This document shows, piece by piece, positions 5,694-40,210 of a stretch of DNA of 40,231 nucleotides. A program made the translations under genes and the position numbers. The stretch covers positions 1 through 40,231 of the IMG/VR virus record IMGVR_UViG_3300034104_002741; one strand, given 5' to 3'. Within the stretch, counting starts at the first letter, position 1. Each line of letters opens with the position of its first letter. Source of the stretch: a virus. The notes below the pieces were generated by a model. That model was given only the letters and a program-made list of their open reading frames with translations, was not told where the DNA came from and searched no databases.

Positions 5694-8545
5694 GCTATTC
5701 ACGTCGGCAACTTTACGCATTTGGCGAACCACTGGGCGATTCCGTCACTCGCAAAGAGGGTGGCCGGGTTGTTTACGGTGACGGCGGTGGTGGCGGCAGT
5801 CCATCTCAAACACAGACTCAAATTTCTGAACTTCCAGATTGGGCCAAAGGCTACGCTAAAGACACGCTGGCCAAAACCGGTGCTCTGACAGACATAAGCC
5901 AGAATCCATATCAGGCTTACGGGGGCAACCGTATCGCGGGCTTCAGCCCTTTGCAGCAGCAAGCTCAACAGCAAGCCGCCAATATGCAGACATCTGGTGC
6001 TACTGGCTTCGGTACTCAACTCGCTGGCGCAGCGGGCTTGGGCGCTCTTGGTGCTCGTTATGACCCAACACAGTTCCAAGCAGACCAGTTTGGTGGGGAC
6101 TCTGCTCAGCAGTACATGTCTCCGTACATGCAGAACGTCGTTGATATCCAGCAGCGTGAGGCTCAGCGCCAAGGCGACATTGCCGGTACACAGCTGGCCA
6201 GCCAAGCAACCAAGTCCGGTGCTTTTGGTGGTGGTCGTCAGGCCATCATGCAGGCCGAGGCAGCAAGAAATCTTGCCCAACAAAAGGGTGATATTCAGGC
6301 TCGGGGTCTTCAGTCTTCGTATGAGCAGGCGCAAAATCAATTTAACGCCGATCAAGCTCGCCGTATGCAAGCGCAGCAGCTTGCAGAGCAGTCCAAACAA
6401 TACGGCGCGGGCTACGGCATGCAGGGTCTCCAGACTGCGTTGCAGGGTGCTGGTCAACTTGGCACGCTCGGCGGGCAGGAATTTGCTCAAGGCATGGACA
6501 TCAACAAGCTGCAAAATGCTTATGGTGGTCAGCAGCAGGCGTTGCAGCAACAGGGTCTGTCGCAAGCCTATCAAGACTTCCAGAACCAGCAGAACTATCC
6601 GTACAAACAGTTGGGCTTCATGTCCGACATGATCCGTGGTTTGCCGCTTGGCCAGCAGACCACCAGACAAGTGTACGAGCCCGAGCCCGGCTTGGGTTCG
6701 CAACTCTTAGGCGCAGGCACTGCTGCTTATGGCTTGTCCAAGTTTATGGCCGAGGGTGGTATCACGGGCGACGCGAACGTGTCCAACATCCTGAGCAAAT
6801 TGAGCGACGCCCAGCTGGAGCAGGCCAAGCAGTCTGCTATGGAGCGCGAAGACATAAATCAAGTCAACATGATTGTGGCTGAGCAGCAAGAGCGAGCACA
6901 GACACGTAGCGGCATCTCCGCCGCTGCACCCGGGCAAGGTGGTATCGCCAGTGCAGCTTCTGACGAAATGATGGACCGCATGCTACCGACTGAAGCAAGC
7001 ATGGCCCGTGGCGGCATCGTGGCGTTTGCCGGTGGTGGTGCACCCGATATTACGACCATGACCCCAGCAGAAGCTAAAGAGTACGCTCAGCGACTGTTGC
7101 AACGACGTAACGCTACGGAGGCATTTTCAGGAGCGGCTCCAGAAACCTCATCGTCTTCAAAGACCCCAGCGGGCCGTAGCTACACTAGCGGTCTAAGAGG
7201 TGCCGCGCTAAAAGGTGCTGGCCCACTTGCGCTGTTGGCCACTCAACTGTTTGGTATCTCTGATCAAGAGAAGCAAACACTGGCTAAAAACGACCCCGAG
7301 TACGCAGCGGAGCTAGAAGCCGAGGCTGAAAGAGAACGTGCAAAATCAGCCAAAACTGAAGTAGCCCCGGCTCCAAAAGGTGGGGGCTTGGCAGACACCC
7401 CCGAAGCTAAACAGCCAGCGGTCATGCCACCCGATATTGGTGCCAGACGCGAGAGGCCAGCAGCGGCTACAGCAGGCGCACCCACAGGTGGCAGAGACCT
7501 CATGCAGCTGTATGAGGATACCCTTAACCGGGTGAAAAAGTCAGATAAGGGTGACCCGTACGCAGCGCAGACCAAAGAGATAGGCGATTTACTCATCAAG
7601 CAAACAGAAGACGATAAAGCAGCAATTTTGGAAAATCAGGCTAAGTCCGCTAAGGTTTATGACGAGCGCGACAAACGCCTTGTTGCGCGGAAAGCCGACA
7701 TCGCCAAGCGCGAAGACAAGAATCTTGGTCTAGCTCTTTTTGCGGGGGGTATGACCGCTTTCTCTACACCCGGCAGTTTTGCTAAAGCAATCGGTAAAGG
7801 CGCACTTGTAGGCACTGAGAAATTTGCTTCGGGTTTTGAGAAAATTCAAACCGCCAAAGACCTTCTTGACAAGGCAATGGATGACCTTGAGGATTTGCGC
7901 CTAAACCGCAGCGATATGTCTGCCAAAGAAATACGATTAGCCAACAGCAACATATCCGCTGCTAAGATAAAAGCCAAAGAGCTCACGATTGCGGGCCTCA
8001 AAGAAGCTGGTGCTAAGACTGACGCAAAAGCCAAAACAATTTACGACGCTACGATTAGGCAAGATGCGGCTCGTGAAGCTAGCGCCGCTGCTGATCGCCG
8101 TGCTGATATTGCAGCAAACAGGCTGGACGCGACAGAGCGTTCAATGAAAGAACTTGGAGATATTGGCTCTGGCAAAGCTTCGTATATGGGCAAAACTGGC
8201 GCAGCGGGTGTGCAGGCGTACAGAGAAAACCGGGCCGCAGCCCTTGGCGCTCGTTACGAAGGCCCGAAAAAGGCAGCTGCATACAGCCCGGGCGATAAAA
8301 AACTTCATGAAAGTTTAGGGGAACAAATAGCTATGCAGGTGCAACAGGGGGGCACTGACGCAGCAAGTGTGGCTAGGTTAAACCGCTTGCGGGCTGAGAA
8401 AGACGCTATTGAGCGAAAGTACGCCGGGGCTGCTTCAGGGAGCAAATTACCTACGTCTGTTTCTGTGGGTGAGCAAACTTATGCGCGACCTGCTAACTTT
8501 ACTGATGCACAATGGAGTGAATACGTACAATCCGTAGGAGCCTAA
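5690..8545 (+). CDS. Large Gln-rich virion protein, probable DNA-ejection component
   Basis: The 951-residue protein has a Gln-rich N-terminal half with the recognisable phrase IAGFSPLQQQAQQQAANMQ, then long Ala/Gln helices (YMSPYMQNVVDIQQREAQRQ and following). This half ends at YEPEPGLGSQLLGAGTAAYG. The middle repeats the motif ARGGIVAFAGGG seen in related tail proteins. The C-terminal half is Lys/Glu/Ala-rich and probably coiled coil (about residues 640-870). There is no enzyme motif. Gln/Ala-rich helical virion proteins of this type are commonly ejected with DNA or form the tail hub. The start overlaps the previous stop as ATGA. Confidence 0.65.
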   Translation: MSYSRRQLYAFGEPLGDSVTRKEGGRVVYGDGGGGGSPSQTQTQISELPDWAKGYAKDTLAKTGALTDISQNPYQAYGGNRIAGFSPLQQQAQQQAANMQTSGATGFGTQLAGAAGLGALGARYDPTQFQADQFGGDSAQQYMSPYMQNVVDIQQREAQRQGDIAGTQLASQATKSGAFGGGRQAIMQAEAARNLAQQKGDIQARGLQSSYEQAQNQFNADQARRMQAQQLAEQSKQYGAGYGMQGLQTALQGAGQLGTLGGQEFAQGMDINKLQNAYGGQQQALQQQGLSQAYQDFQNQQNYPYKQLGFMSDMIRGLPLGQQTTRQVYEPEPGLGSQLLGAGTAAYGLSKFMAEGGITGDANVSNILSKLSDAQLEQAKQSAMEREDINQVNMIVAEQQERAQTRSGISAAAPGQGGIASAASDEMMDRMLPTEASMARGGIVAFAGGGAPDITTMTPAEAKEYAQRLLQRRNATEAFSGAAPETSSSSKTPAGRSYTSGLRGAALKGAGPLALLATQLFGISDQEKQTLAKNDPEYAAELEAEAERERAKSAKTEVAPAPKGGGLADTPEAKQPAVMPPDIGARRERPAAATAGAPTGGRDLMQLYEDTLNRVKKSDKGDPYAAQTKEIGDLLIKQTEDDKAAILENQAKSAKVYDERDKRLVARKADIAKREDKNLGLALFAGGMTAFSTPGSFAKAIGKGALVGTEKFASGFEKIQTAKDLLDKAMDDLEDLRLNRSDMSAKEIRLANSNISAAKIKAKELTIAGLKEAGAKTDAKAKTIYDATIRQDAAREASAAADRRADIAANRLDATERSMKELGDIGSGKASYMGKTGAAGVQAYRENRAAALGARYEGPKKAAAYSPGDKKLHESLGEQIAMQVQQGGTDAASVARLNRLRAEKDAIERKYAGAASGSKLPTSVSVGEQTYARPANFTDAQWSEYVQSVGA

Positions 8546-19292: not shown

Positions 19293-19517
19293 TTACAAAA
19301 CAGAGAACAGCTGGCTGATCTTTGCGGCCTGTGTTGGGCTTGGCTCGTGCTTGCCAAGGAACCAGTTGTAGACCGACTGCCGACTGACGCCCAACTTCTC
19401 TACGACCTCGATCACAGAGATGTTGGAGTCAATACAGTACCGCCCAAACCGTACGCCGAACCTCTTTTTAGAGGCTTTGCGGTTCCCGTGCAGCAGCCGT
19501 AGTGAATATCCGACCAT
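19293..19517 (-). CDS. Cro/CI-like helix-turn-helix regulator
   Basis: The 74-residue basic protein has a clear HTH: VIEVVEKLGVSRQSVYNWF, followed by LGKHEPSPTQAAKISQLFSV as in XRE/Cro-type domains. It has no extra dimerisation or ligand domain, so it is the size of a Cro-like protein. Its ATG overlaps the stop of the SSB-like gene as TAATG, and a nested stem-loop follows it before the primase gene. It may control early transcription; the operator is unknown, but the dispersed palindromes on the right side of the window are candidates. A role in lysogeny cannot be inferred because no integrase or CI-sized repressor is seen. Confidence 0.75.
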   Translation of the reverse strand: MVGYSLRLLHGNRKASKKRFGVRFGRYCIDSNISVIEVVEKLGVSRQSVYNWFLGKHEPSPTQAAKISQLFSVL

Positions 19518-23665: not shown

Positions 23666-23853
23666 GTGTTCTTCTCTTTGAGTTTGGCTTCAATGGCTCG
23701 GGCAAAGTCAATGCGGTGTTGTTCAAACATTAGATGCGGTAATGGATCTAAGTTGTGAATTTCACCAATCGTCAGCCCTACCCACTTCTCGCAGTTGTTT
23801 ACGCTTTTAAGCCCCATCGCGTTGGCTACGGCTCGGTCAAGTGCGGCGGTCAT
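23662..23853 (-). CDS. WVGLT / FARAIEAKLKEKNT family small protein, paralogue A
   Basis: The 63-residue protein contains CEKWVGLTIGEIHNL and ends IDFARAIEAKLKEKNT. The same two motifs occur in the genes at 23850 and 24420, so this is a paralogous family within the array. The last five codons (AAAGAGAAGAACACATGA region) also serve as the ribosome binding site and start of the next gene. Start and stop both overlap neighbours as ATGA. Function is unknown; I associate such proteins with Burkholderiales phages from memory only. Confidence 0.6.
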   Translation of the reverse strand: MTAALDRAVANAMGLKSVNNCEKWVGLTIGEIHNLDPLPHLMFEQHRIDFARAIEAKLKEKNT

Positions 23854-24038
23854 GTGTTCTTCTCCTTGAGTTTGGCTTCGATGGCTCGGGCAAAGTCATC
23901 AATCTCCCCGCCATAGCAGTTTTGAATTTCATCCTCCGTCAGCCCTACCCACTCTTTGCGTATGAACACTACGCCCTTGGTCTCACGCTCATCATGCATC
24001 GGGCATCCGCGCTCGGCGCATCCTTCGTCTAATATCAT
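23850..24038 (-). CDS. WVGLT / FARAIEAKLKEKNT family small protein, paralogue B
   Basis: The 62-residue protein from the ATG ending at 24038 overlaps the upstream stop (ATGA) after GGAGAAGAACAC. It has an N-terminal Cys/His cluster (EGCAERGCPMHDERE) not seen in its two paralogues, then EWVGLTEDEIQNCYGGEIDD and the shared ending FARAIEAKLKEKNT. The Cys/His residues could bind a metal. A longer frame upstream runs through the previous gene and was rejected. Confidence 0.6.
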   Translation of the reverse strand: MILDEGCAERGCPMHDERETKGVVFIRKEWVGLTEDEIQNCYGGEIDDFARAIEAKLKEKNT

Positions 24039-25720: not shown

Positions 25721-25956
25721 GCTTTCCTCGCTTTCAGCATTGCGTCTGCCAGTGCGTATGCTTCTTGAGCAATGATTGGGAAATATTCATCCCAGTCCAT
25801 TTCGTCGCTAACAGTGCCAAACTGGGTTCTTCGATAGGAAATAATAGTTTGCATCGCCTTGGCCGCAAAGTAATCGCGCAGGGTCATGCCGTCATAGAGC
25901 GAATTTTCAACGCCGGGATGGCATGGAAACGCTGGCCAACCTGTTTCTGCTGTCAT
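25717..25956 (-). CDS. GMTLRDYFAAKAM family small protein
   Basis: The 79-residue protein has the recognisable phrase LYDGMTLRDYFAAKAMQTII and ends EAYALADAMLKARKA. This layout is widespread in hypothetical proteins of proteobacterial phages and prophages, where length is usually 70-110 residues. No catalytic motif is visible. The gene is coupled on both sides by ATGA overlaps. Confidence 0.7.
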   Translation of the reverse strand: MTAETGWPAFPCHPGVENSLYDGMTLRDYFAAKAMQTIISYRRTQFGTVSDEMDWDEYFPIIAQEAYALADAMLKARKA

Positions 25957-30304: not shown

Positions 30305-30333
30305 ACTGTATAGACCCCGTTGGACTGTGTCAA
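30305..30333 (-). promoter_or_regulatory. Sigma70-like promoter for VRR-NUC/polymerase operon
   Basis: On the minus strand TTGACA (30328-30333) and TACAGT (30305-30310) are spaced 17 bases apart. An overlapping TATACA gives a 15-base alternative. It lies downstream of a terminator (30409-30433) and of one copy of the dispersed palindrome (30366-30395), and just upstream of the ribosome binding site of the 30283 gene. Confidence 0.6.
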
Positions 30334-30365
30334 GTTATTTTTTATGAGGGGAAACACCTAGTCCC

Positions 30366-30395
30366 GAACAAAGCGACACGCAGTCGGATTGTCCA
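30366..30395. repeat. Dispersed 30-bp palindromic element, copy 1
   Basis: The arms ACAAAGCGACA and AGTCGGATTGT flank a three-base centre. This copy sits between the terminator at 30409 and the promoter at 30305, about 33 bases upstream of the -35 box, so it is probably outside the transcript it would control. It has the ACAAA...ATTGT polarity on the plus strand. Confidence 0.75.
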
Positions 30396-30408
30396 AAAAG
30401 TATAGACG

Positions 30409-30433
30409 AAAAAAGACCCGCACAAGGCGGGCC
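30409..30433 (-). terminator. Rho-independent terminator after the 30454 gene
   Basis: On the minus strand GGCCCGC and GCGGGTC form a 7-bp stem with one G-T pair and a CTTGT loop, followed by TTTTTT. It lies 21 bases after the stop of the 293-residue gene and ends the MoxR/VWA block before the polymerase operon starts with its own promoter. Confidence 0.75.
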
Positions 30434-30453
30434 AAAAACCACAGGGGGGTTGT

Positions 30454-31335
30454 TTATCTGACTATGAGGAAGTTGTCTGCATCAACTCGGTAGCCAACAT
30501 CTTTTACCACCTCGTTGTCCTCCATCAGCTGAAGCACAGCCAACTTGTTCTGCCACTCCAATGGCAATGCTTCAAACGGTAGAAGGTCAGGTTGAGACTT
30601 TTCCGCTTCTTCCTTTGAGTCAAGCAAAGTGTTGTCAGTAAAGAACGCATACAAACCATCCATCAAGTGGATGGGTATCGTGCCCTGCGGTAACATCCTC
30701 ATGTGCTGAGCAAGCATGTACTCTGACAGTGCATTCTCAAACTTGCTACTGTGCATCACCTCAGAGAACGATGATAGAAGCCTAGTGTCAGGCGGCTGGT
30801 TCCGCAAAAACGCGTTGAGCAGAATCTGTGTGCCTTCCATGCTAGGCAAGAAGTGACCGCGTTGGATAGAGACCTCCAACCTATTGAGAGCGTTTGAGTA
30901 ACGGTTCTGCACATCCGTAACCGCCTCATACACAACCTTACCCAGCGAGGGACACTTCAGGTAGTTCTTGGCGTGGCGTACCGCTGTGTCCATGTTGGTG
31001 GTCTTCGTGATGTTCCCTCGGCGGCTCCTGATATTCTCCGAAGACACCGTCAAGCACCACTTCTTAGTGGGGTCACGCGATACATTACGCTGGATAGACA
31101 CGACGCCAAGGTGTCTACTGTTCTGCGTAACGCTCATGCGTAAAGCGTACTCGGTATCCTTCGGTGCTTGGCTGTTGTTCTGCATACACCTCGTCGTTGT
31201 GTGGTACTGGTCTTTGGCGGGGTCGAATGTGAAAGTCCACTCAGGCCTAGCCAGCGCCACCTTGTCTACGAATTGTTTGAGGGTAGGTTCTAGCAAGATA
31301 CCTTCGCCTCGTACATCAACATTTGCTAATTGCAT
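30454..31335 (-). CDS. Unknown protein at the end of the MoxR/VWA block
   Basis: The 293-residue protein begins MQLANVDVRGEGILLEPTLK. Its N-terminal half looks alpha/beta (ALRMSVTQNSRHLGVVSIQR, WCLTVSSENI). The C-terminal half is helical (ENALSEYMLAQHMRMLPQGT, EWQNKLAVLQLMEDN) and ends VDADNFLIVR. No family is recognised. The ribosome binding site AAGGAACCAAT lies nine bases after the DUF3150-like stop, so the two are co-transcribed. A terminator follows. It may be a partner or substrate of the ATPase/VWA module by position only. Confidence 0.6.
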   Translation of the reverse strand: MQLANVDVRGEGILLEPTLKQFVDKVALARPEWTFTFDPAKDQYHTTTRCMQNNSQAPKDTEYALRMSVTQNSRHLGVVSIQRNVSRDPTKKWCLTVSSENIRSRRGNITKTTNMDTAVRHAKNYLKCPSLGKVVYEAVTDVQNRYSNALNRLEVSIQRGHFLPSMEGTQILLNAFLRNQPPDTRLLSSFSEVMHSSKFENALSEYMLAQHMRMLPQGTIPIHLMDGLYAFFTDNTLLDSKEEAEKSQPDLLPFEALPLEWQNKLAVLQLMEDNEVVKDVGYRVDADNFLIVR

Positions 31336-31344
31336 ATTGGTTCC

Positions 31345-32220
31345 TTACCAGTTAAATTTGCCAATGATTTCTTGCACACTTGACTTGAGTTCTGCCCGCG
31401 CACTGGACAGGTCGCGCAAGTCTTGAGCGTCCACACCCGACAACGCCTTCTCTAGCATGCGTCTTGCTTCTTCGAGCTGGGGGTCATTGGTAACATTGAG
31501 TTTGCTCAGCAGCCCGCACAACTCCAACGGCTTGTTGACAATCGAGTCGCGGAAAATGTTGCGATCACCCTTGTCGGTATCCGTCAGGCGATCACTCATG
31601 TGAGTCAGCACCGCATGCAGTCTCTCCCACGGTTCACGCATGGCCTCGGCCAGCTTCTCGTTGAACATCTTGTCGTACTGCTCGGCCAAGTCTTCGCGCA
31701 CCCTGTCCTCACACTGGATACGGAAGTCCCCCTTCTCTGGAACAGGGAGAAAGTTGAACCCGAACTTAAACCGTTTCGGTAAAGACTCAGCATCAGGGAA
31801 CTCGGTGGCATCGAAGTAGTCGCCCAGCTTGAACGCCTGTGCGCTCACCAGTGTGGGGTATACCTTGACGAAGTCCTCGACCAGCGCATTGAAGTTGGCC
31901 TCCATCGTGCCCAGCTGTTCTCGGTACGCAAAGAAGTTAGCCATAGGCAGCAAGCCCACGCCCTTCATCCAAGGCAGAGTCTGCTGTGCATTCCACGCCC
32001 TGCACTTGGCCGCATACTTCTCGATCTTCTTGAGATGATCGCTGCCCGCCATGAGGTACTTGTAGACGCTGCCCGCATCGCTGTCTGCTTGCTTGGCTTT
32101 GTTGAGGTCAGCCGTTGTCTCGTTGTCACGCTTACGCGCTGTCCATGTGCTGATACGCAACTCAACGAGCATAGCCATTGAGGACAAAGAAACCGGAGGT
32201 GCTACTAGATTGGTAGTCAT
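31345..32220 (-). CDS. DUF3150-like protein
   Basis: The 291-residue protein starts at the ATG ending at 32220 (AAAGGATTTATC upstream); the longer frame passes through the palindromic element. The N-terminus reads LVELRISTWTARKRDN, then a helical region (YAAKCRAWNAQQTLPWMKGV, LLPMANFFAYREQLGTMEAN), a short beta part (RFKFGFNFLPVPEKGDFRI) and a long helical end. This plan resembles DUF3150 proteins, which I know as neighbours of MoxR/CobS-like ATPases and VWA proteins in phages and mobile elements. Those partners are present here. The assignment rests on layout and context. Confidence 0.6.
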   Translation of the reverse strand: MTTNLVAPPVSLSSMAMLVELRISTWTARKRDNETTADLNKAKQADSDAGSVYKYLMAGSDHLKKIEKYAAKCRAWNAQQTLPWMKGVGLLPMANFFAYREQLGTMEANFNALVEDFVKVYPTLVSAQAFKLGDYFDATEFPDAESLPKRFKFGFNFLPVPEKGDFRIQCEDRVREDLAEQYDKMFNEKLAEAMREPWERLHAVLTHMSDRLTDTDKGDRNIFRDSIVNKPLELCGLLSKLNVTNDPQLEEARRMLEKALSGVDAQDLRDLSSARAELKSSVQEIIGKFNW

Positions 32221-32230
32221 GATAAATCCT

Positions 32231-33295
32231 TTAAGTTGGTGAACATTCCGACACTGAGTCGGTTTGTCTGAAGTCGATATGAATTTCGCGGAAGTACTCC
32301 GCATTGCATTTGGACGGCACTGTGCCCGCCGGTATGGTGATCACCTTGAACGCCTCATCACGGTGCAGGAACGCAGTGATGGTCTTGACATAGTCATACA
32401 CGCGCTTCGGGGTAACATGCTCCTGTTTGGCGTGGTAGTTATGTGTCCAGCCTGTCCCGACATGCTCCTGTATCACATTCAACGCATCGAGCCAGCGGTC
32501 CGGGTTGTTGCCGCTCATCCACGCAGCCAGCAACTCCGAAGACGCCCTGTGAAAAGTCGCGCCTCTCCTGTTCGGTGAGTACGGTAAGTAGTCCACATCA
32601 GCTAGCGCTTGCATGACATACCCGCGCCTACCACCATCTTCATCCCATGCTAGGCCACTGACAGCGTTTCTCTGAGCATCGCAGAACTCATTGCTGTAGC
32701 CCAACTCCGTTCTGAACTTCCTGAAGGACAGACTTAGTTCCTCATGGCTACCGCTAGGCGCAATAGTCGAAGTCAACATCACCCATTCAAGGAACGCGCC
32801 AAACCGCCGCTGGACTATGGCGTCAGCCACCCCACGCCTGACCCTGTACACCTCTGCGTCCGGTGCATTCTCCACCTCAAAGATAGGGCGGCCTTGGTGT
32901 ACCCTTGCAACAGGTACAAACTTGAGGGACTGACGCCTCGACACTTCTATGCTCTTGCCGTCAGTCTGCACAAACAAACGCCCCTTGTTCCATTCAAACG
33001 ACATGCTACGCGGCACAAACCCGATGATCTGATCACCGCTGTACGCAGAATAGTACTTGGGTGCATGCAGTATGAATGTGTTATTGCTATGCCATTCAAC
33101 AAGCTTGTGCCCGTAGTATTTCAGCACCACTGTGAGGGGGTCGGGCATGGTGATGCTGGCCGCATGGTGGTAACGCCGCTCACCGAGTGGGCGCACCCCA
33201 TCCTTGTTACCGCGTATGGGCTTGACTTTGCCGTACCACTCCCTCGCTTCATCAAATGAACTAAGGCGAGGCGCACCTATTGAGTTGTATCCCAT
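32231..33295 (-). CDS. Unknown protein in the MoxR/VWA block
   Basis: The protein is 354 residues from the ATG ending at 33295, one base after the upstream stop and preceded by AAAGGAAGATTGAT. It has beta-rich segments (DPLTVVLKYYGHKLVEWHSN, FILHAPKYYSAYSGDQIIGF) and a basic centre (RRQSLKFVPVARVHQGRPIF). No domain is recognised; similar length proteins with a GxxxxGAPRLSSFDEA start occur in phages next to VWA genes to my recollection, without known function. Its last 13 codons contain copy 2 of the dispersed palindrome. Confidence 0.6.
   Translation of the reverse strand: MGYNSIGAPRLSSFDEAREWYGKVKPIRGNKDGVRPLGERRYHHAASITMPDPLTVVLKYYGHKLVEWHSNNTFILHAPKYYSAYSGDQIIGFVPRSMSFEWNKGRLFVQTDGKSIEVSRRQSLKFVPVARVHQGRPIFEVENAPDAEVYRVRRGVADAIVQRRFGAFLEWVMLTSTIAPSGSHEELSLSFRKFRTELGYSNEFCDAQRNAVSGLAWDEDGGRRGYVMQALADVDYLPYSPNRRGATFHRASSELLAAWMSGNNPDRWLDALNVIQEHVGTGWTHNYHAKQEHVTPKRVYDYVKTITAFLHRDEAFKVITIPAGTVPSKCNAEYFREIHIDFRQTDSVSECSPT
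32241..32270. repeat. Dispersed 30-bp palindromic element, copy 2
   Basis: The arms ACATTCCGACA and AGTCGGTTTGT surround a three-base centre. It lies inside the last codons of the 32231 gene and ends 21 bases before the start codon of the DUF3150-like gene, directly upstream of its ribosome binding site. Polarity is opposite to copies 1, 5 and 6. Confidence 0.8.
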
Positions 33296-33296
33296 A

Positions 33297-33458
33297 TCAA
33301 TCTTCCTTTCTTTCAAAGTAGATAGTCGCCAAGTGGCGCACTACCTGTCCGTTGGTTGGTTCAAAGCCTAGGTTCAGCATCAGGTCGTTCTTCACATCCT
33401 GTAGCAGATCGTAGGTCTCCTTGTTAAGCGTCACGCTGTACGCCGGTGGGTTTTTCAT
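33297..33458 (-). CDS. Ribbon-helix-helix-like small DNA-binding protein
   Basis: The 53-residue protein begins MKNPPAYSVTLNKETYDLLQ and continues NGQVVRHLATIYFERKED. The strand-helix-helix pattern (YSVTL, then two helices) fits the Arc/MetJ ribbon-helix-helix fold, which binds palindromic operators as a dimer. The start at 33458 is supported by an ATGA overlap with the upstream stop and a GGAGG ribosome binding site; the longer frame is a shadow. It is a candidate regulator for the dispersed palindromes nearby, but this is a hypothesis. Confidence 0.6.
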   Translation of the reverse strand: MKNPPAYSVTLNKETYDLLQDVKNDLMLNLGFEPTNGQVVRHLATIYFERKED

Positions 33459-33700
33459 TTCGTGGCCTCCATCTGTTTCATGTTCGCTGCAATCTCCATC
33501 TGCAATATCGCAGTCATCGGTGTGACCCATGTCGCAAACCCCGGCGGCTTGATGACATTGGACTTATCCGACTCCACACCCTTAATCCATGCGTGTTCTA
33601 CGCGACTCGCTGAGTTGAGCGTGTTGCATATCGACATGGCCTCCTCCGGTGTCAAGAGAAACTTCGTACTGTTGATGTGTAAAATTACGCTGTCGTCCAT
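33455..33700 (-). CDS. Small protein next to VWA gene, unknown
   Basis: The 81-residue protein begins MDDSVILHINSTKFLLTPEE and contains AMSICNTLNSASRVEHAWIK. The N-terminal strand-helix looks like a small alpha/beta fold. The ATG at 33700 follows AAGGATTGATC and lies two bases after the VWA stop. The last bases give the start of the next gene (ATGA). No family is recognised. Confidence 0.55.
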   Translation of the reverse strand: MDDSVILHINSTKFLLTPEEAMSICNTLNSASRVEHAWIKGVESDKSNVIKPPGFATWVTPMTAILQMEIAANMKQMEATK

Positions 33701-33702
33701 GA

Positions 33703-34971
33703 TCAATCCTTGGTTACGCAGACGACTTGCCCGCGTGGTATCTTGAATGAGTCGCTACCTATGATGCACCACAGGATGGGTAATCCCAATCCGGCCCACT
33801 TGCGCGGGTCGCTGGTCATGTATCCATCAGTCAGCACCACGAGAGCGTCAGCTTTCTCAAGCTTCTTATCAAGCATGAACGCGGGTACGCAGTCAGGGTC
33901 AGTACCGCCACCGCCCTTGGGCTTAGTCTTGGATACGATTGACTTGGCCGCACCCTTGTGCGTCTCATGTCCAGCCACCTCGGTGTCCCAATACAGCACA
34001 TCAACGCGATCAGGGTTGGTTGTTGTGACCACCTTGTTGAGTTCTCCCATAAACAGAGAAAGCATTTCGCCTTGTATCGAGCCCGATGTATCCATCGCAA
34101 TCACGAGGTGCTTCATGCGTTTACCCACGATGCTCGGTAGGATGATGTCTTGCCACAAGTAATTCTTGTGTGCCTTACGCCAGCTTGGAGAGTCGCGGTC
34201 TTTGAGCGATGTACGCACAAACCTACGCAGCACTTCACGCCAGTCAACCTTCGGCTCAAGCATCTCTTGGACTGAGCGCAGCATGTTGCCGCCCACCTTG
34301 CCCGCGTAGATGCCACCTTGACGAAGCGCACTCTCAATTTCTTGAGTCAACTCTTTGATCGTCTCGGCTGTCATCTCTTTAGCGCCTTGCCAGTCATGCT
34401 CATCGAGCCCCGAACTATCCGACCCACTGTCGGTTTGTTCTCCGTCCTCGCCGCCACCACCGGGCTCATCGCCTTCCTCGCCACCGCCGCCTTTCTCTTT
34501 CTCTTTCATGAGAATGTCGAAGACCTGCTTGGTGTCCATGCCACGGAACCTTTCGTCGATCAGGCCGATGTTCTTGCGCGTCTGCTTGTCACGCGGCATA
34601 GCGATCATGGTCTCGCCTGTGTCCATGTCACGCAGCTGTATGTTGATGACATAGTCACACGCTTGGTTGGCAATGCTCCGGTCTACCTCATACAACGCCC
34701 GCCATGTGGTCAGGTGGCGGTAGCACTTGTGCATGTTTTCGTGCAGCACAAGGAAAGCAAGTTCTTTGTCTGACAACATGTCAACGAATGTGCGGCCATA
34801 GAATGCGTCACGCCCGTTGGTCTTGGCCGTTATCGTCTCCTCGGTGATAGTAGTCACCCCCACCATAAATAAGCCCGCGAAAAAAGCGAACCGCTTGTCC
34901 CGCATCAGACTCACATGGACGAGCTCAAGCCTACGCTCGGCTGGCAACCTATTCTTTAGAACCATATTCAT
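33703..34971 (-). CDS. VWA-domain protein with DUF2201-type metallopeptidase-like N-terminus
   Basis: The 422-residue protein has an N-terminal zinc-peptidase-like motif LVLHENMHKCYRH (His77, Glu78, His81) followed by ANQACDYVIN (Asp108), as in DUF2201_N proteins. An acidic Gly/Glu linker spans about residues 155-190. The C-terminal VWA domain has an intact MIDAS motif, IAMDTSGSI (Asp294, Ser296, Ser298), and VVLTDGY. Such proteins pair with MoxR-type AAA+ ATPases, here encoded at 36396. The gene is coupled to the upstream 65-residue gene (ATGA). Possible roles are a metal-insertion or protein-remodelling adaptor, or attack on a host target. Confidence 0.85.
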   Translation of the reverse strand: MNMVLKNRLPAERRLELVHVSLMRDKRFAFFAGLFMVGVTTITEETITAKTNGRDAFYGRTFVDMLSDKELAFLVLHENMHKCYRHLTTWRALYEVDRSIANQACDYVINIQLRDMDTGETMIAMPRDKQTRKNIGLIDERFRGMDTKQVFDILMKEKEKGGGGEEGDEPGGGGEDGEQTDSGSDSSGLDEHDWQGAKEMTAETIKELTQEIESALRQGGIYAGKVGGNMLRSVQEMLEPKVDWREVLRRFVRTSLKDRDSPSWRKAHKNYLWQDIILPSIVGKRMKHLVIAMDTSGSIQGEMLSLFMGELNKVVTTTNPDRVDVLYWDTEVAGHETHKGAAKSIVSKTKPKGGGGTDPDCVPAFMLDKKLEKADALVVLTDGYMTSDPRKWAGLGLPILWCIIGSDSFKIPRGQVVCVTKD

Positions 34972-35165
34972 AAAATTCTCCCGGTTTCGTTACAAATAAA
35001 TGTCTTCATAGCGGCTAGCGCCTGTTCATCCTTGCCCATGTGCAGCAAGTCGTAAATCTCACGGATAGATCGGTCGTACGATGTACGCCCCCGTAGCTCC
35101 GCTATCAGCTCCTCGTCCGAAAACTCGTCAAGTTCTACCTCAACATCAACAGTTACATAGGGCAT
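34968..35165 (-). CDS. Small acidic protein upstream of VWA gene
   Basis: The 65-residue acidic protein reads MPYVTVDVEVELDEFSDEEL, then IAELRGRTSYDRSIREIYDL. The VxVxLDEFSDEELIxEL pattern is common in small phage proteins. It has a strong ribosome binding site (AAGGAGATGAGCG) and overlaps the upstream gene by 13 bases and the VWA start by ATGA. Strong coupling may set the amount of VWA protein made. Function is unknown. Confidence 0.65.
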   Translation of the reverse strand: MPYVTVDVEVELDEFSDEELIAELRGRTSYDRSIREIYDLLHMGKDEQALAAMKTFICNETGRIL

Positions 35166-35416
35166 CGCTCATCTCCTTGTTGAAACAACAGGTCACTCAA
35201 CTCTGTTATCAGCGCAGCAAACAATGCTGCTTTGGTTTTCTGTTCGGGGATAGTCGCGGTTATCCCGTTGACCTCCAATCGTTGCACCCACAACCCGAAA
35301 GCTTTGATGCCTACATTGAATGTCTTCTTCTCGTACTGCACAGGTGCAGTGCAGCTAAGCCACTGTCCGGAGTTGGAATTCTCCAAAACCATCTTGCAGA
35401 AATCACTGACTGTCAT
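35153..35416 (-). CDS. Small early protein, unknown
   Basis: The 87-residue protein starts MTVSDFCKMVLENSNSGQWL and has beta-like segments (KKTFNVGIKAFGLWVQRLEV). A helical end (LFAALITELSDLLFQ) follows. No domain is recognised. The ATG overlaps the upstream stop (ATGA) through the AACACATGA junction. Confidence 0.55.
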   Translation of the reverse strand: MTVSDFCKMVLENSNSGQWLSCTAPVQYEKKTFNVGIKAFGLWVQRLEVNGITATIPEQKTKAALFAALITELSDLLFQQGDERCPM

Positions 35417-35628
35417 GTGTTCCCCCTTGCTCGGATTGCTTCGGCAATGAACTCGCTCACGGCATCGTCAGGGATAAACAAACTCTCAATTAACTGAGCA
35501 CACGCCTTACGCTCTTCTGCTGCGACAAGCGCGGCGAAGCGTTTGAGGAATTCTTTGTCAGTTGACAGGGTTGAATCCCAATCGTCACCAGCTTCACGCG
35601 CCATGCGGATGATGTCTTCTTGTGTCAT
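35413..35628 (-). CDS. EERKACAQLI / IRARG family small protein, paralogue 2
   Basis: The 71-residue protein starts at the ATG ending at 35628 after GGAGAAGAACAC. It reads MTQEDIIRMAREAGDDWDST, then LKRFAALVAAEERKACAQLI and ends IAEAIRARGNT, parallel to the gene at 25314. Related small proteins are frequent in proteobacterial phages. Its presence 10 kb from its paralogue shows that family members are scattered in the early region. Function is unknown. Confidence 0.65.
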   Translation of the reverse strand: MTQEDIIRMAREAGDDWDSTLSTDKEFLKRFAALVAAEERKACAQLIESLFIPDDAVSEFIAEAIRARGNT

Positions 35629-35924
35629 GTGTTCTTCTCCCCGGCAAAGCGTGGTATAGCCTCGCACTCAAACCCATTTTTGTTCCATCTTTCAACACAT
35701 TGATAGGTCATGCCCGCTTCTTCCCATCCAAAGTATTGCCAACTGCCCCCGACTTCCCGTCTTCTCCACGCAACAGGCTCCTGCGCTGGCTGTGCCAAGG
35801 CTTCTTTTATGGTGTTCATAACATCACCAACATCAATCGTTACGCACTCTGTTTCAGTGTCTATACCGTCCAATTGTTCCAGCGCCTCCAGCGCCAGCTT
35901 CAATGCTTCTAGTTTTTTAGTCAT
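35625..35924 (-). CDS. LALEALE / IKEALAQPAQEPVA family protein, paralogue 3
   Basis: The 99-residue protein starts MTKKLEALKLALEALEQLDG, continues VMNTIKEALAQPAQEPVAWR and ends with a Trp/Tyr-rich segment and FAGEKNT. The N-terminal module is shared with genes at 24656 and 24895; the C-terminal part is unique. The end again encodes the GGAGAAGAACACATGA junction. Function is unknown. Confidence 0.65.
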   Translation of the reverse strand: MTKKLEALKLALEALEQLDGIDTETECVTIDVGDVMNTIKEALAQPAQEPVAWRRREVGGSWQYFGWEEAGMTYQCVERWNKNGFECEAIPRFAGEKNT

Positions 35925-36100
35925 GCTCGCTCCACCGAATCATGTGCCTGCTTTACTTGTTTCAGCACAGCATCGTCTTTGCACATGGCATCGACAAGGT
36001 GACACATTGACCGCGCTCTGTTGGCGTGGTGCATGTTGCGAAAGAACAGGATGACACACAGCGCTAGCAGTGTCAGTTCCAATACAGTGAATTCAATCAT
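35921..36100 (-). CDS. 59-residue N-terminally anchored membrane protein
   Basis: The protein begins MIEFTVLELTLLALCVILFF, a single hydrophobic segment of about 18 residues, followed by a basic/polar cytoplasmic-type tail (RNMHHANRARSMCHLVDAMC and on). Both ends overlap neighbours as ATGA. Its small size and membrane anchor resemble phage superinfection-exclusion or host-inhibitory proteins, but that is speculation. Confidence 0.65.
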   Translation of the reverse strand: MIEFTVLELTLLALCVILFFRNMHHANRARSMCHLVDAMCKDDAVLKQVKQAHDSVERA

Positions 36101-36351
36101 GCCGTCACCTCCTGCACTGGTGCTGGCGTATCCTTGATGTTCAAGCCCGCCTTGGTGCGGCGCATGATGCTCAGCACTTCACGCGAACCGCGATCTGCGA
36201 CAATCGCCAACCCATACTGGCCTAGCACGATACGCACTGCCATGTTGCGCCTCGCTCCCTTGACGCTGGCGGCGTACCCCATAGCTACGGGGCGTTTGCC
36301 AGATGCATCTGGCTCGGTGAAATACTGCGTTACGAATGGTCGTTTAGACAT
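36097..36351 (-). CDS. Small basic early protein, unknown
   Basis: The 84-residue protein starts at the ATG ending at 36351 (AAGGAAACCAAA upstream). It reads MSKRPFVTQYFTEPDASGKR, then SVKGARRNMAVRIVLGQYGL and RGSREVLSIMRRTKAGLNI. It is a basic alpha/beta protein without a recognised domain. It is the first gene after copy 3 of the dispersed palindrome and heads the run leading to the VWA gene. Confidence 0.6.
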   Translation of the reverse strand: MSKRPFVTQYFTEPDASGKRPVAMGYAASVKGARRNMAVRIVLGQYGLAIVADRGSREVLSIMRRTKAGLNIKDTPAPVQEVTA

Positions 36352-36372
36352 TTTGGTTTCCTTGGTTGATAC

Positions 36373-36402
36373 AAACAATCCGACACCGTGTCGGTTTATC
36401 CC
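36373..36402. repeat. Dispersed 30-bp palindromic element, copy 3
   Basis: The arms ACAATCCGACA and TGTCGGTTTAT enclose the centre CCG. It overlaps the stop codon of the MoxR gene and ends 21 bases before the start codon of the 36351 gene. It has the same polarity as copies 2 and 4. Confidence 0.85.
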
Positions 36403-37475
36403 TTGAGACCAGCAAACATGTACTGGTTCTCGCGAGCCCATGTGACGAACGATGGATGCACCATCGCCCACGCTTTCTTATCCTTGAGTTCCAACAGGGA
36501 GTTGATGAACACAGCCTGAGTCTCTTTGGGCATGCGGCGTACATACCGCATCCAAGTGGCGAAGTTCTCCCGTGTCGCAGCTGCCGTCGCTTTGAACATC
36601 AAGATGCACTGAGCAGAGGGTGAGGTCGGTACAAGCGCCGTGTCGGGCGAGTTTTCAATGGATTCACGCGTTGGCAGTTGGTCTGCCAGTTGGATGAATA
36701 CCTGAAGGTCACGCGATGCAGAGAAGCCGATAGTCCCATCGAGACAAGCAATGAACGCGTTATCGGTTAGCGATGCCCGCTTGGCCACCCAGTGCGATGC
36801 TTTGAACATCGAGCGTGGTGACACGAACGCAAGCTGAGATGCGTCCTTGGGGTTAAAGATATACGGGTTCTTGTCCTGCCCGCCATCCATGTAGCTGAGC
36901 ATGCAGTGTTCGTACTCGTGTACCCAAGCGGTCACCTCTGGCTCTACGCCATTCTTTACCGCCCAAGCACACCATTCTTTAGCAGTGGGTTTCATGTAAG
37001 TCATCCATGTCTGTCTGTTGCGTGTATGCGCCTTGGCTGAGTCGCCGACACCATCGGCATCCATGTTGCCAGTGGTGAAAACGATAGAGTCAGGGTGCAA
37101 GTTGAAGTTGCCCAAGCGCCGCTCGTGCAGCAGTGGGTGCAGCGTGTTCCGCACATAGTCATCGGTCTTGGTCCACTCATCAATCATGATGCACAGCGGT
37201 TCGTTGGTGTGCAGCCCGAAGTAATCAGCAGGGTAAAAATCCAGCGTCCGCGAGGTGTGGTTGGGTATCGGCATGCCCGCCTGACCCACATCGGTGTTGG
37301 GTCCGTCGATATACACTTTCCTGTAACCCGTTTTCTCCACGATCACATCTTGAATCGCTGTCTTCCCAACGCCCGGTTCGCCCGTCAGGTGAACTGAGTT
37401 GTGCCCAGAGTTGAGCAGGATATCCACGGTCTCCGCGAAGTTGACGCGGCGTGATAGATTCATTTCGTTAGCCAT
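36396..37475 (-). CDS. MoxR/CobS-type AAA+ ATPase
   Basis: The 359-residue protein has Walker A TGEPGVGKT (about 31-39), Walker B LCIMIDEW (Asp99-Glu100), a sensor-1-like VFTTGN and an arginine-rich segment AHTRNRQ. This is the MoxR/CobS-like AAA+ layout of remodelling ATPases that work with VWA partners. A VWA-DUF2201 protein is encoded 1.4 kb downstream. The start ATG at 37475 follows AAGGAAAATGTAA. Copy 4 of the palindrome lies 31 bases upstream and copy 3 lies at its end. It may load or activate a metal enzyme or dismantle a host complex; the target is unknown. Confidence 0.85.
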   Translation of the reverse strand: MANEMNLSRRVNFAETVDILLNSGHNSVHLTGEPGVGKTAIQDVIVEKTGYRKVYIDGPNTDVGQAGMPIPNHTSRTLDFYPADYFGLHTNEPLCIMIDEWTKTDDYVRNTLHPLLHERRLGNFNLHPDSIVFTTGNMDADGVGDSAKAHTRNRQTWMTYMKPTAKEWCAWAVKNGVEPEVTAWVHEYEHCMLSYMDGGQDKNPYIFNPKDASQLAFVSPRSMFKASHWVAKRASLTDNAFIACLDGTIGFSASRDLQVFIQLADQLPTRESIENSPDTALVPTSPSAQCILMFKATAAATRENFATWMRYVRRMPKETQAVFINSLLELKDKKAWAMVHPSFVTWARENQYMFAGLKG

Positions 37476-37506
37476 TTACATTTTCCTTAATAGAACAGGT
37501 TGGTTG

Positions 37507-37536
37507 GAACAATCCGACACCATGTCGGTTTGTCAT
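37507..37536. repeat. Dispersed 30-bp palindromic element, copy 4
   Basis: The arms ACAATCCGACA and TGTCGGTTTGT surround the centre CCA. This is the best-conserved copy: only one position in each arm breaks perfect symmetry. It overlaps the stop of the 37533 gene and lies 31 bases upstream of the MoxR start codon. Confidence 0.85.
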
Positions 37537-37805
37537 GAACGAGGGGACTTTTGATTAGTGTCTTTCAGAGTCTTTGGTGCAGACGCTTGAGTCACTAATG
37601 TGTACGGCCCTTTCCCGTACTCTTGCACGATGCACCACACACGGCGGGCATCAGCTGCAATCTGGTCGCCACAGGCGTGGCATGTGTGATAACCAAGTTG
37701 CCATCGGGCGATGTGAACATCGTCCCCGCACAACTCGCAGTCACGGAAGTCGAAGTCGCGATCCGTGCTGTCATCGGCATCGTATTCTCTAGCTAGGTAT
37801 CTCAT
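37533..37805 (-). CDS. Zinc-ribbon-like protein
   Basis: The 90-residue protein begins MRYLAREYDADDSTDRDFDF, then DCELCGDDVHIARW and YHTCHACGDQIAAD. Two CxxC knuckles (with a nearby His) form a likely zinc ribbon. The C-terminus is Lys/Pro-rich. The ATG at 37805 overlaps the upstream stop (ATGA) after GGAGAATCGG. It may bind nucleic acid or protein. Confidence 0.65.
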   Translation of the reverse strand: MRYLAREYDADDSTDRDFDFRDCELCGDDVHIARWQLGYHTCHACGDQIAADARRVWCIVQEYGKGPYTLVTQASAPKTLKDTNQKSPRS

Positions 37806-38086
37806 CCGATTCTCCAAAGAGTAAGTACAGGCTGAGCACCGGCCTCGGATGCTGTCCAGAACACAGGCGTGAACGGACGGCCTTCTTTCTCGGCCTCGTT
37901 CTTGGCTTGGACTTGCGTGCGGTAGATTTCCTCTGGCGTGCCGAAGAGCAAGCCGTACATCATGGCGTCGAGCCAGTCTTCACGGTTATCGCCGAGGAAG
38001 TATGCTTTGCTCTGCCGCCGCTCTGTCCTGATATTTTCAATAGACTTGAGCAGTTGACGGTCAATGGCGGGCCAGTTGCTACTCAT
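37802..38086 (-). CDS. Early protein, unknown
   Basis: The 94-residue protein reads MSSNWPAIDRQLLKSIENIR, then AYFLGDNREDWLDAMMYGLL and EIYRTQVQAKNEAEKEGRPF, mostly helical. No domain is recognised. The ATG overlaps the stop of the 31-residue membrane protein gene, and its stop overlaps the zinc-ribbon start, both as ATGA. Confidence 0.55.
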   Translation of the reverse strand: MSSNWPAIDRQLLKSIENIRTERRQSKAYFLGDNREDWLDAMMYGLLFGTPEEIYRTQVQAKNEAEKEGRPFTPVFWTASEAGAQPVLTLWRIG

Positions 38087-38178
38087 AGCGGCCTCCAGAC
38101 GAACAGGTCCAGCAGCACAACAATGATCGCGATCACTATCACAGTGACACGGGCAAGGCGTTCGTTATGGGTAAACAT
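38083..38178 (-). CDS. 31-residue membrane microprotein
   Basis: The protein reads MFTHNERLARVTVIVIAIIV, then VLLDLFVWRPL. It has a short basic N-terminus and one hydrophobic helix of about 18 residues. A strong ribosome binding site (AAGGAGCATCAC) begins at the stop of the preceding gene, and its own stop overlaps the next ATG. Coding evidence is therefore good for so short a gene. Function is unknown. Confidence 0.65.
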   Translation of the reverse strand: MFTHNERLARVTVIVIAIIVVLLDLFVWRPL

Positions 38179-38188
38179 GTGATGCTCC

Positions 38189-38377
38189 TTACTCGGTTGG
38201 GTAACGCAGACCAGTGTTGGGGTCGAGCAGACCGGCGGGGTATTCATCGGCTGGCAGGGCGCTTCGGTCTTCGGCCATAAGCGTAGCCAACTCAAGATCG
38301 GTGATGAGGCCATCGGCCCACAGTTGCACCGCGTAACTTACATTTTCGTGGTGGCGGTCAAGGTCGCTTTGAGTCAT
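38189..38377 (-). CDS. Small acidic early protein, unknown
   Basis: The 62-residue protein starts MTQSDLDRHHENVSYAVQLW at the ATG ending at 38377 (TTGGAGCAACCT upstream). It contains GLITDLELATLMAEDRSALP and ends GLLDPNTGLRYPTE. It is acidic, with no known domain. It is the first gene after the operator-rich promoter at 38482-38510, whose leader carries copy 5 of the palindrome 20 bases before this start. Longer upstream frames run through the promoter and were rejected. Confidence 0.6.
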   Translation of the reverse strand: MTQSDLDRHHENVSYAVQLWADGLITDLELATLMAEDRSALPADEYPAGLLDPNTGLRYPTE

Positions 38378-38397
38378 AGGTTGCTCCAATAAAGGTT

Positions 38398-38427
38398 GAA
38401 CAAACCGACAGCATGACGGAATGTCTG
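38398..38427. repeat. Dispersed 30-bp palindromic element, copy 5
   Basis: The arms ACAAACCGACA and TGACGGAATGT surround the centre GCA. It lies in the 5' leader between the promoter at 38482-38510 and the start at 38377, ending 20 bases before the ATG. Its polarity is opposite to copies 2-4. Confidence 0.8.
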
Positions 38428-38481
38428 CTGCCGTGGAATACAGTGAGATTGTTGTCAATTCATTCACTGTACCCAAGGTAC

Positions 38482-38510
38482 ATTGTACCATACAAACTTG
38501 ACAATGTCAA
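38482..38510 (-). promoter_or_regulatory. Sigma70-like promoter with overlapping palindromes
   Basis: On the minus strand TTGACA (38505-38510) and TACAAT (38482-38487) are spaced 17 bases apart, a near-consensus promoter. The -35 box lies in a perfect 17-bp palindrome ACTTGACA-A-TGTCAAGT (38496-38512). The -10 box lies in GGTACA-T-TGTACC (38477-38489), and a further GTACC/GGTAC pair spans 38469-38481. These look like operator half-sites covering -35, -10 and +1, so the promoter is probably repressible. The regulator is unknown. Confidence 0.75.
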
Positions 38511-38525
38511 GTGCCTGTTCGCGTT

Positions 38526-39305
38526 TTAGCCGCCGTGTTCGGCTTTGCGTTGCTGTGCCCGCAGGTACTCATCCCTGCGCCGGATGGCCGCAAAGATGCT
38601 GTCATCCTTAGAGTCCACATGCTGAACTTCAGGCTCTTTGGACTTTTGGACAGGCGTCTGGGCAACCAGACCGTCCAGCTTGGCCTCGATATCGTCAAAC
38701 GAAAACTCTTCAAGGTTGGCGGGCTCGGCGTCTCGGACAGGAGTCATGCTTCGCATCACCAGCACAGGAACAGTCGGGTCGGCGTAGATCGTCTCGGCGT
38801 TGATCATGTGCTTCGGCTTGAACGCGTTGGTATGGCGATGGTCGGGTATACCCTTGCAGTCGAACCCTGCCCGCGCTGCTGTCTCTGCCAGATGACGCAG
38901 GATTACGGGGTCTGATGGTTTCAGGGTTTCCAGCACATCGTCTGGTGGTGCAACCAGATGACGGCTTTCCAGCTGGCTTGGCAAAAGCGCGGTGGGCAAG
39001 TCCGATGCTCGGCGCTCTTTCACGAATGCGCCCGCCTCGGTGTGATGGTACGGATTGACGCAGAACCGTGTGTTGCACCAGCGCACGATTCTGGTGCTGG
39101 CTGGTGGGAACCGGCAAATGGTGAATAGGATGCGGGCAACGCTGGTCGTGCCGAACAATTTGGACAGCGGCGAGGCTGGCGCGAGCATGGGCATGGTCAT
39201 TGTGACCTTGTCAGGCCAGATGTAGCAGTCATCGCGGCGGGCACAGTTGTGGAACAGGTCATCGGCAGTCTTGTACTTCTGAGGGCGTCCGTTGGGTTTG
39301 AGCAT
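38526..39305 (-). CDS. HNH/His-Me-finger-like DNA-binding protein
   Basis: The 259-residue protein has an N-terminal domain with CYIWPDKV, a helix (SVARILFTICRFPP) and RWCNTRFCVNPYHHTEA (Cys77, Cys82, His87, His88). The C-x4-C-V-N-P-x-H string is typical of HNH-type phage proteins; full catalytic residues are uncertain. The C-terminal part is acidic and linker-like, ending in a charged helix (FAAIRRRDEYLRAQQRKAEH). It is the first gene of the leftward block. A weak promoter at 39358-39384 and AAAGGACAAAACC precede it. It may regulate early transcription. Confidence 0.6.
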   Translation of the reverse strand: MLKPNGRPQKYKTADDLFHNCARRDDCYIWPDKVTMTMPMLAPASPLSKLFGTTSVARILFTICRFPPASTRIVRWCNTRFCVNPYHHTEAGAFVKERRASDLPTALLPSQLESRHLVAPPDDVLETLKPSDPVILRHLAETAARAGFDCKGIPDHRHTNAFKPKHMINAETIYADPTVPVLVMRSMTPVRDAEPANLEEFSFDDIEAKLDGLVAQTPVQKSKEPEVQHVDSKDDSIFAAIRRRDEYLRAQQRKAEHGG

Positions 39306-39357
39306 GGTTTTGTCCTTTGGTTGAAAAACTCGGGCTGTTAATAAAAGGCATCGACAT

Positions 39358-39384
39358 AGTATATCAAAGTGGGGTGTTTGACAA
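39358..39384 (-). promoter_or_regulatory. Possible promoter for the 38526 gene
   Basis: On the minus strand TTGTCA (39379-39384) and TATACT (39358-39363) are 15 bases apart; TACTAT offers a 17-base alternative. Both boxes are near consensus but spacing is not ideal. It lies about 50 bases upstream of the start codon at 39305. Confidence 0.4.
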
Positions 39385-39422
39385 GACCTGTACGATTTTT
39401 TAGGGGTTTTATCTACAATATT

Positions 39423-39563
39423 TTATAAGAGTGCTCATACGGTGGAACAGGGAGAGAGGGCGCGGGAGGAATTGAGCAATCATCCTATTCTCAACTTTTT
39501 CTGTGTTCAAATTTTAGTTGGGGTACCTTCTCTCTCTGGTAAACAGTTTAAGCACTCTTATAA
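39423..39563. repeat. Long inverted repeat, 38-bp arms with 65-bp spacer
   Basis: The left arm 39423-39460 and right arm 39526-39563 are inverted copies with 30 of 38 matching positions. The outer 13 bases (TTATAAGAGTGCT and its complement) match perfectly. A perfect TATAAT lies at the outer edge of the right arm. Such arms could form a cruciform origin, flank a small inserted element, or hold paired regulator sites. Confidence 0.7.
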
Positions 39564-39902
39564 TATTTTATTTATAAAAGTAAGTAAGTAAGAGAGAAAA
39601 AATGAAAAGAACCTGTGCAAAATCAACGACTTAGCGAAAATTTCCGGTTTCGTATGTATAAAGAACGAAGGGGTACTTTTATAGCATTGGGCCAAAAACG
39701 AGGTCCGAGATTGATATAACTAGGTGGGATTGTTGGTGCGTACTTGGCCGCGAGGCCGCGTGAATGCTGGCGAGGTGGCTGCGCCCGTTGTGGGCTTTGA
39801 TAAAAGAGGGGTCTTTTTTGCTTGTTTTTTAAGCTATATCGCGCTTGGTGAGAGCCTTTGCCTATGACCGAGCCCAAAGTCATAACTAAAAACTATAAGC
39901 CC

Positions 39903-39932
39903 GAACAAACCGACAGCCTGTCGCATTGTCCG
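39903..39932. repeat. Dispersed 30-bp palindromic element, copy 6
   Basis: The arms ACAAACCGACA and TGTCGCATTGT surround the centre GCC. It lies in the non-coding right region, far from any called start codon on the minus strand, so it may act on genes beyond the right edge or on the region itself. It has the polarity of copies 1 and 5. Confidence 0.8.
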
Positions 39933-39936
39933 AACG

Positions 39937-40061
39937 CTACCCCGATGCTCCCTGCAACTACTATCATACGAATCTGGCGGGCGCTACCCTGCCTTGCCCG
40001 CCGCGCAGAGCAGGACTATCCCGATGCTCGCCACGCCAGCCAAGACTACCCCGATGCTCGC
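39937..40061 (+). repeat. Three 16-bp direct repeats
   Basis: CTACCCCGATGCTCCC (39937-39952), CTATCCCGATGCTCGC (40016-40031) and CTACCCCGATGCTCGC (40046-40061) are near-identical. The first and third are also followed by CAACTACTATCA within 20 bases. Iteron-like repeats of this kind occur at origins and regulator sites; no function is proven. Confidence 0.65.
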
Positions 40062-40210
40062 TACCAACAACTACTATCAAGCCCGCCCCGACTTTGTCGG
40101 GGCCAAAAAAAACCGGCCCCGAACGCCGAAGCGCCCGAGGCCGGACACGGCCCGAAGGCCGCAGGATTTACAGAAAGTAGGGAAGACACAGCGCCGCGAG
40201 AGCGCAGACT

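Follow-up and report, generated by a model that had tools for sequence, protein, structure and literature searches.

Phage operators of the lambda type, in which one consensus half-site is paired with one variant half-site, overlap promoters. Operators dispersed within transcripts have been documented mainly in temperate mycobacteriophages. The stoperators of the L5-type (cluster A) mycobacteriophages are asymmetric 13-bp sites that are bound by a monomer and oriented with transcription, and the monomeric repressor, which combines a helix-turn-helix (HTH) with a Stoperator domain, has been proposed to block elongation (PMC9283540). A roadblock of this general kind is also known within a gene: the site for C.Kpn2I lies in its own coding sequence, where it stalls RNA polymerase (PMC6237814). 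Here we describe a layout similar to that of the mycobacteriophages in an uncultured podovirus-like group. It is represented by the IMG/VR virus record IMGVR_UViG_3300034104_002741, a linear sequence of 40,231 bp that is referred to throughout, at its full length, as the window. The early region of the window carries seven copies of a 29-bp interrupted palindrome, and we argue that these are probably operators of a phage-encoded early regulator, most likely a protein of about 220 residues termed P218, whose gene is the first of the early region and lies just past the window's right end.

The element has the form GAACAAWCCGACA-N3-TGTCGGWTTGTTC, with 13-base arms around a 3-base centre. An initial annotation of the window had presented it as a 30-bp palindrome with 11-base arms occurring in six copies; the interrupted symmetry and the 3-base centre stand, while the length, the arms and the count required revision. 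A search with ACAAWCCGACANNNTGTCGGWTTGT, allowing up to three mismatches, recovered seven matches in the window and none in 100 dinucleotide shuffles. An out-of-sample profile was trained only on distant relatives with the same form of the motif (lineage A: G006, L015, G017 and L012), the window and its closest relatives being excluded. It recovered the seven sites at 31.1–37.3 bits. The next best match in the 40 kb scored 0.8 bits, and 20 simulated sequences reached at most 11.8 bits. The two procedures rule out chance or a repeat artefact, and the sites are real. They are confined to 30.3–40.0 kb of the window, and the profile bears out the earlier observation that the left 30 kb has none.

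The virion genes of the window occupy the plus strand from 0 to 16 kb, and the early genes, including an operon for a MoxR-type ATPase, a DUF2201/vWA protein and a DUF3150 protein, are on the minus strand. In the direction of early transcription, the rightmost copy (39903..39931, 35.3 bits) lies in non-coding DNA near the right end and has an equivalent at position 7230 of the sister phage L009. The next (38398..38426, 31.1 bits) is about 60–70 nt downstream of the predicted start of an early promoter, TTGACA-17-TACAAT (38482..38510, minus strand; 11 of 12 consensus matches, kept in relatives), and 34 nt before the next ATG. A third (37507..37535, 34.6 bits) occupies the leader of the MoxR-type ATPase gene (36396..37475, minus strand; PHROG 1297, N4 gp24-like), its centre 46 nt before the ATG, and relatives have a palindrome here as well. 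The copy at 36373..36401 (31.5 bits) covers the MoxR stop codon, 36 nt before the following start. The highest-scoring one (34412..34440, core match 34414–34438, 37.3 bits) is located within the gene of the DUF2201 metallopeptidase-like/vWA protein (33703..34971, minus strand), in the linker preceding the vWA domain. Further along, at a conserved place, the copy at 32241..32269 (32.9 bits) spans the 3' end of a gene for a 354-residue protein, with its centre 34 nt before the start of the DUF3150 gene (31345..32221, minus strand). The last (30366..30394, 31.9 bits; same place in lineages A, B and C) is inserted between the intrinsic terminator that ends the early operon (30415..30433, minus strand) and the promoter of the next, nuclease/replication operon, TTGACA-17-TACAGT (30305..30333, minus strand), which is kept in relatives; relatives also share the order terminator, site, promoter. 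The coordinates of the six copies reported earlier were exact, and their placement at gene boundaries or in non-coding DNA was correctly described; it is the seventh, inside the vWA gene, that departs from this description.

A scan with the MoxR protein yielded 23 IMG/VR loci, and the core of the element was searched in 24 whole records. Relatives have 4–11 copies, located at the same boundaries as in the window: before and after the MoxR gene, before the DUF3150 gene, behind the operon terminator, and inside the vWA gene. These boundaries are kept among relatives with 76–96% MoxR identity, while the motif itself drifts as a set in each genome. Five lineage motifs could be distinguished, A GAACAAWCCGACA, B GGAATNATCGACA, C GGACWNATCGACA, D GAACAAATCGAAT and E GAAGAAACCGACA, which differ in the outer (GAAC, GGAA or GGAC) and inner (CCGACA, TCGACA or TCGAAT) parts of the arm and retain the 3-base centre throughout. 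All copies within one genome have the form of its lineage, which fits a single reader in each phage acting on every copy. Beyond the palindrome, no sequence is conserved at a fixed distance among the relatives compared, and in one genome, G023, no copies of this motif were found. All 16 vWA genes examined contain the internal copy, in each case close to the beginning of the vWA domain and with the motif of the respective lineage. This copy occupies two different reading frames, encoding unrelated peptides (EQTDSGSDSS as against GNDRQDVGNS or GTKRKGFGKF), and selection must therefore act on DNA or RNA rather than on protein. Sequence comparison thus establishes that both the boundary sites and the vWA copy are conserved, under selection on nucleic acid. 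Scanned over the window, the profile found no equally good copies strewn at random, and the element occurs at the same boundaries in the relatives and is absent elsewhere. The earlier proposal, that a phage-specific element controls several early transcripts, is therefore well supported.

In identifying the protein that reads the sites, we required that it be present wherever they occur and that it change when the motif changes. The 74-residue HTH_3 protein (19293..19517, minus strand), which had been suggested as a binder, was discarded: it hardly differs between G015 and G022 despite their different motifs, and has a homologue in G023, where the motif was not found. A 259-residue protein with weak HNH similarity (38526..39305, minus strand), the operon's first sizeable gene product inside the window, was likewise rejected, as its tree calls for 10 motif changes and that of P218 for 5 (26 phages). 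A sequence search of solved structures gave nothing relevant.

P218 was retrieved from 47 loci by an alignment scan. In L009 its gene spans 6100–6771, with a site centred 50 nt before the start, and in L022, from a B-motif lineage, it spans 5045–5698. Of 40 loci, 17 or more show a site 43–57 nt upstream of the P218 start. The motif follows the tree of this protein and not that of the phage backbone. The P218 proteins of all phages with the A motif, including G017, form one clade (support 99/98), whereas the MoxR tree places G017 with lineage D (100/99). Among the G017 genes that match both G019/G021 and G006, all are nearer to their D-lineage sisters except P218, which is 46% identical to that of G019 and 63% to that of G006. 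Two further phages are discordant: G008, which falls within the A clade by MoxR and outside it by P218, has its own motif, and G022, which MoxR groups with B, has a divergent P218 and the C motif. On trees of 23 shared phages the motif class changes 5 times with P218 and 7 times with MoxR, the minimum for five classes being 4; Zn90 requires 8 changes against 5 for P218. The partial correlation with motif distance, given a background of MoxR, Pol and vWA, is 0.77 for P218 and 0.40 for the next protein, and 0.66 for P218 when MoxR alone forms the background. From these comparisons, which establish that motif and P218 change together, P218 is well supported as the reader, and the case rests mainly on the discordant phages G017, G008 and G022.

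We therefore favor, at a probability of roughly 0.55, a reading in which a single early regulator encoded by the phage, most likely P218, uses the sites as double-stranded DNA operators and damps early transcripts by blocking elongation. As it accumulates, P218 would bind the sites, probably as a dimer on the two 13-bp half-sites, and both its own gene and the MoxR/vWA/DUF3150 operon would be transcribed less; the site often present in the P218 leader suggests self-limitation. Direct binding by P218, its dimeric state, repression as the sign of regulation, and the roadblock step are inferred. All seven are clear of the predicted sigma-70 promoters; they lie downstream of promoters or between genes, and no promoter is conserved at a fixed offset from them in the window or the relatives. 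A site that lies past a promoter, at the end of a gene or within vWA cannot occlude a promoter, which makes an elongation block the simplest reading, and such a block has precedents in the L5 stoperators (PMC9283540) and C.Kpn2I (PMC6237814). Bound P218 would thus act mainly as an obstacle to RNA polymerase within transcripts, in leaders, at gene ends, within vWA and past the terminator, and not chiefly by promoter occlusion. For the copy upstream of the 30333 promoter, capture of read-through or regulation of that promoter is an alternative. A loose terminator scan picks up some copies, on one strand or the other, but the sites are not intrinsic terminators, because their tails are weak, copies precede genes and one is in mid-gene; terminators with long T runs are at 30415–30433 and 40113–40144.

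Several observations weigh against this proposal. P218 has no recognizable DNA-binding domain and no fold match. It had no match in Pfam, PHROG or cultured phage proteins; its AlphaFold model (predicted local distance difference test, pLDDT, 82) consists almost entirely of helices, including a long one near the C-terminus, and gave no significant match in a structure search. There is no site within 200 nt upstream of P218 in G006, G017/L080 and some other loci. The phylogenetic contrast is slight for some neighbors: vWA requires 5 changes against 4 for P218 and the 354-residue protein 4 against 4, giving little discrimination. With the MoxR-only background, DUF3150 (0.72, in fewer phages) and the portal-side genes (about 0.56) also correlate with the motif. 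Finally, mismatches within the arms, read on the transcript strand, are G-U more often than A-C (76 versus 38, counts in which related sites are not independent), the corresponding figures outside the arms being 214:199. This excess is a hint of transcript polarity or RNA structure, and could also come from a DNA site with transcript polarity or from a C-to-T bias.

The last point bears on the possibility that the element acts in RNA, as a leader or intergenic hairpin recognized by P218 or some other protein, or else in processing, pausing or antitermination. Besides the G-U excess, this would be consistent with the location of the sites within transcripts, often 34–60 nt before start codons, and with the ability of every copy to form a short stem with a 3-nt loop. 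We nevertheless consider it unlikely, as conservation does not extend to the loop, most of the mismatches could pair neither as Watson-Crick nor as G-U (241 of 1417 pairs fall outside these classes and A-C), and one copy is in the midst of the vWA coding sequence. The initial annotation had given the consensus two W positions, at −7 of each arm. The two proved not to be independent, for both arms have the same letter in all seven window sites and in 40 of 45 distinct lineage-A sites (A/A in 25, T/T in 15), and are complementary in just 3 of the 45. Each site thus consists of one ..AAACCGACA half and one ..ATCCGACA half (A-type and T-type), in both orientations relative to transcription. Such a rule fits a DNA-bound dimer better than an RNA stem, and the frequent arm-to-arm mismatches, together with the unpaired −7 position, are expected for a DNA dimer site and not for a stem. 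As reader of the sites, P218 has a competitor in the 53-residue ribbon-helix-helix-like protein of the operon (33297..33458, minus strand; true start 33458, its orthologues all beginning MK), which had also been put forward as a binder and might read them alone or with P218. It is conserved wherever the operon is complete, and the motif has GACA-like quarter sites at an 8-bp pitch. Its strand residue 8 is S/N with outer GAAC and V/A with outer GGA, and residue 17 is D with C at arm position −11 and E with A there. Few independent events lie behind this pattern, the G017 and lineage-D proteins are distinguished by two residues despite their different inner motifs, and the protein's divergence does not track the motif (partial r 0.02–0.10), so that it fits badly and its part as reader appears rather improbable. 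Its model has two helices (pLDDT 86), with no significant PDB match in a fold search. Variable residues occupy the expected DNA-contact positions 8 and 10 of this protein. In several relatives a palindrome covers the end of its gene, where the window has none.

Two other explanations were considered. The spacing of several copies, about 0.9–2.2 kb apart within one 10-kb block, might suit sites for genome organization, such as partition, looping, compaction or replication control. We think this quite improbable, given that nearly all copies are at gene starts or ends, that one is between a terminator and the next promoter, that P218 often has a site in its own leader, and that the proteins examined showed no ParA/ParB-like member. 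The 6-bp stem and 3-nt loop recall the early promoters of phage N4, and the early-operon MoxR and vWA proteins are distantly related to N4 gp24 and gp25, which raises the idea that the sites are hairpin promoters read by a virion RNA polymerase. The window has good sigma-70 promoters, the palindrome has no conserved flanks, and one copy is in mid-gene; moreover, the 2508-residue protein matches LPD39 and DarB-like families rather than an RNA polymerase. No large virion protein had a match to an RNA polymerase, which divergent ones can escape, and we regard hairpin promoters as highly improbable.

Other features accompany the sites, some of which may belong to further regulators. A second inverted repeat, ATAATGTAC-N3-GTACATT (GTACAATGTAC..GTACA in the window), is conserved at 38460–38512 and the corresponding position of relatives. 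In the lineages checked it covers the −10 of the 38510 promoter, with G017 having TATAATCTACTTTAGTAGATT instead, and it resembles an operator for a different regulator. Between the site at 30366 and the 30333 promoter, the window (30330–30362) and relatives share a conserved AGGTGTTTCCCCTA / TAGTGTTAACACCTA stretch that may be an additional operator of the replication operon. The non-coding right end (39937–40059) has three exact occurrences of CTAYCCCGATGCTC, where 0.4 are expected with up to two mismatches, and L009 also has three. The intrinsic terminator at 40113..40144 (minus strand) is 3' of the P218 gene, by comparison with L009, and the window ends about 90 nt past it. Elsewhere, 23850–23894 is an exact 45-bp match to phage DSL-LC05 and 25850–25890 an exact 41-bp match to MW202879, both in DNA otherwise without megablast matches. 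A search of genome contigs for a clue to the host gave one match, to a contig of an Armatimonadetes metagenome-assembled genome, possibly a stray viral contig.

The broader proposition is that an undescribed regulator family, lacking a known DNA-binding fold, uses dispersed palindromes, one of which is in coding sequence, to run an entire early operon, and that regulator and operator set are replaced jointly between lineages as a swappable specificity system. We would give this even odds. A literature search on the element, or on the module with palindromes, found nothing relevant, and a self-made master switch of early genes working through such sites does not seem to have been described. Motif and P218 appear to have been exchanged jointly more than once, providing a natural data set on how the specificity of a regulator and its set of sites changes in step. 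The proposal also offers a testable function for P218, an otherwise unannotated early protein with no known fold.

Among the described systems, the L5 stoperators are similar in that one phage-specific site is repeated many times, in short intergenic spaces as well as within transcripts, and in a diversity of sites that goes with the diversity of a phage-encoded protein, here P218. In contrast to stoperators, the sites are 29-bp palindromes of mixed asymmetry, restricted to the early block and with one conserved inside a gene, and the helical P218 is unrelated to the stoperator repressor and matches no repressor family or fold; nor was there a sign of lysogeny among the genes examined. Hence the system, as proposed, works in a stoperator-like manner but is distinct from stoperators in site asymmetry, orientation and repressor type. 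With C.Kpn2I it shares a protein-binding site, predicted in our case, inside a coding region as a block to RNA polymerase; C.Kpn2I involves one site in one gene, whereas here a set of sites extends across an operon, and P218 is not a C-protein. As in lambda operators, one consensus half is combined with one variant half, but the sites are mostly off promoters, with no −35/−10 overlap for the seven in the window. A parallel in gene content is the Planktothrix phage Pag-Yong1 (OL906435), cultured and sequenced, which has the same MoxR/vWA/DUF3150 early module and the same layout with another palindrome: 26 places match GGTTCAG-N-CTGAACC (GGTTCAGNCTGAACC) with up to two mismatches, most often 25–36 nt before start codons. 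The records OL906435, OQ594354 and PP438419 are each 65,014 bp, with identical palindrome matches and three different host names. The Pag-Yong1 palindrome is an unrelated 15-bp sequence with copies in the late region too, and no P218 homologue was detected among its early proteins. Taken with the window, this phage suggests that a layout of dispersed palindromes may be a general habit of phages with such an early module.

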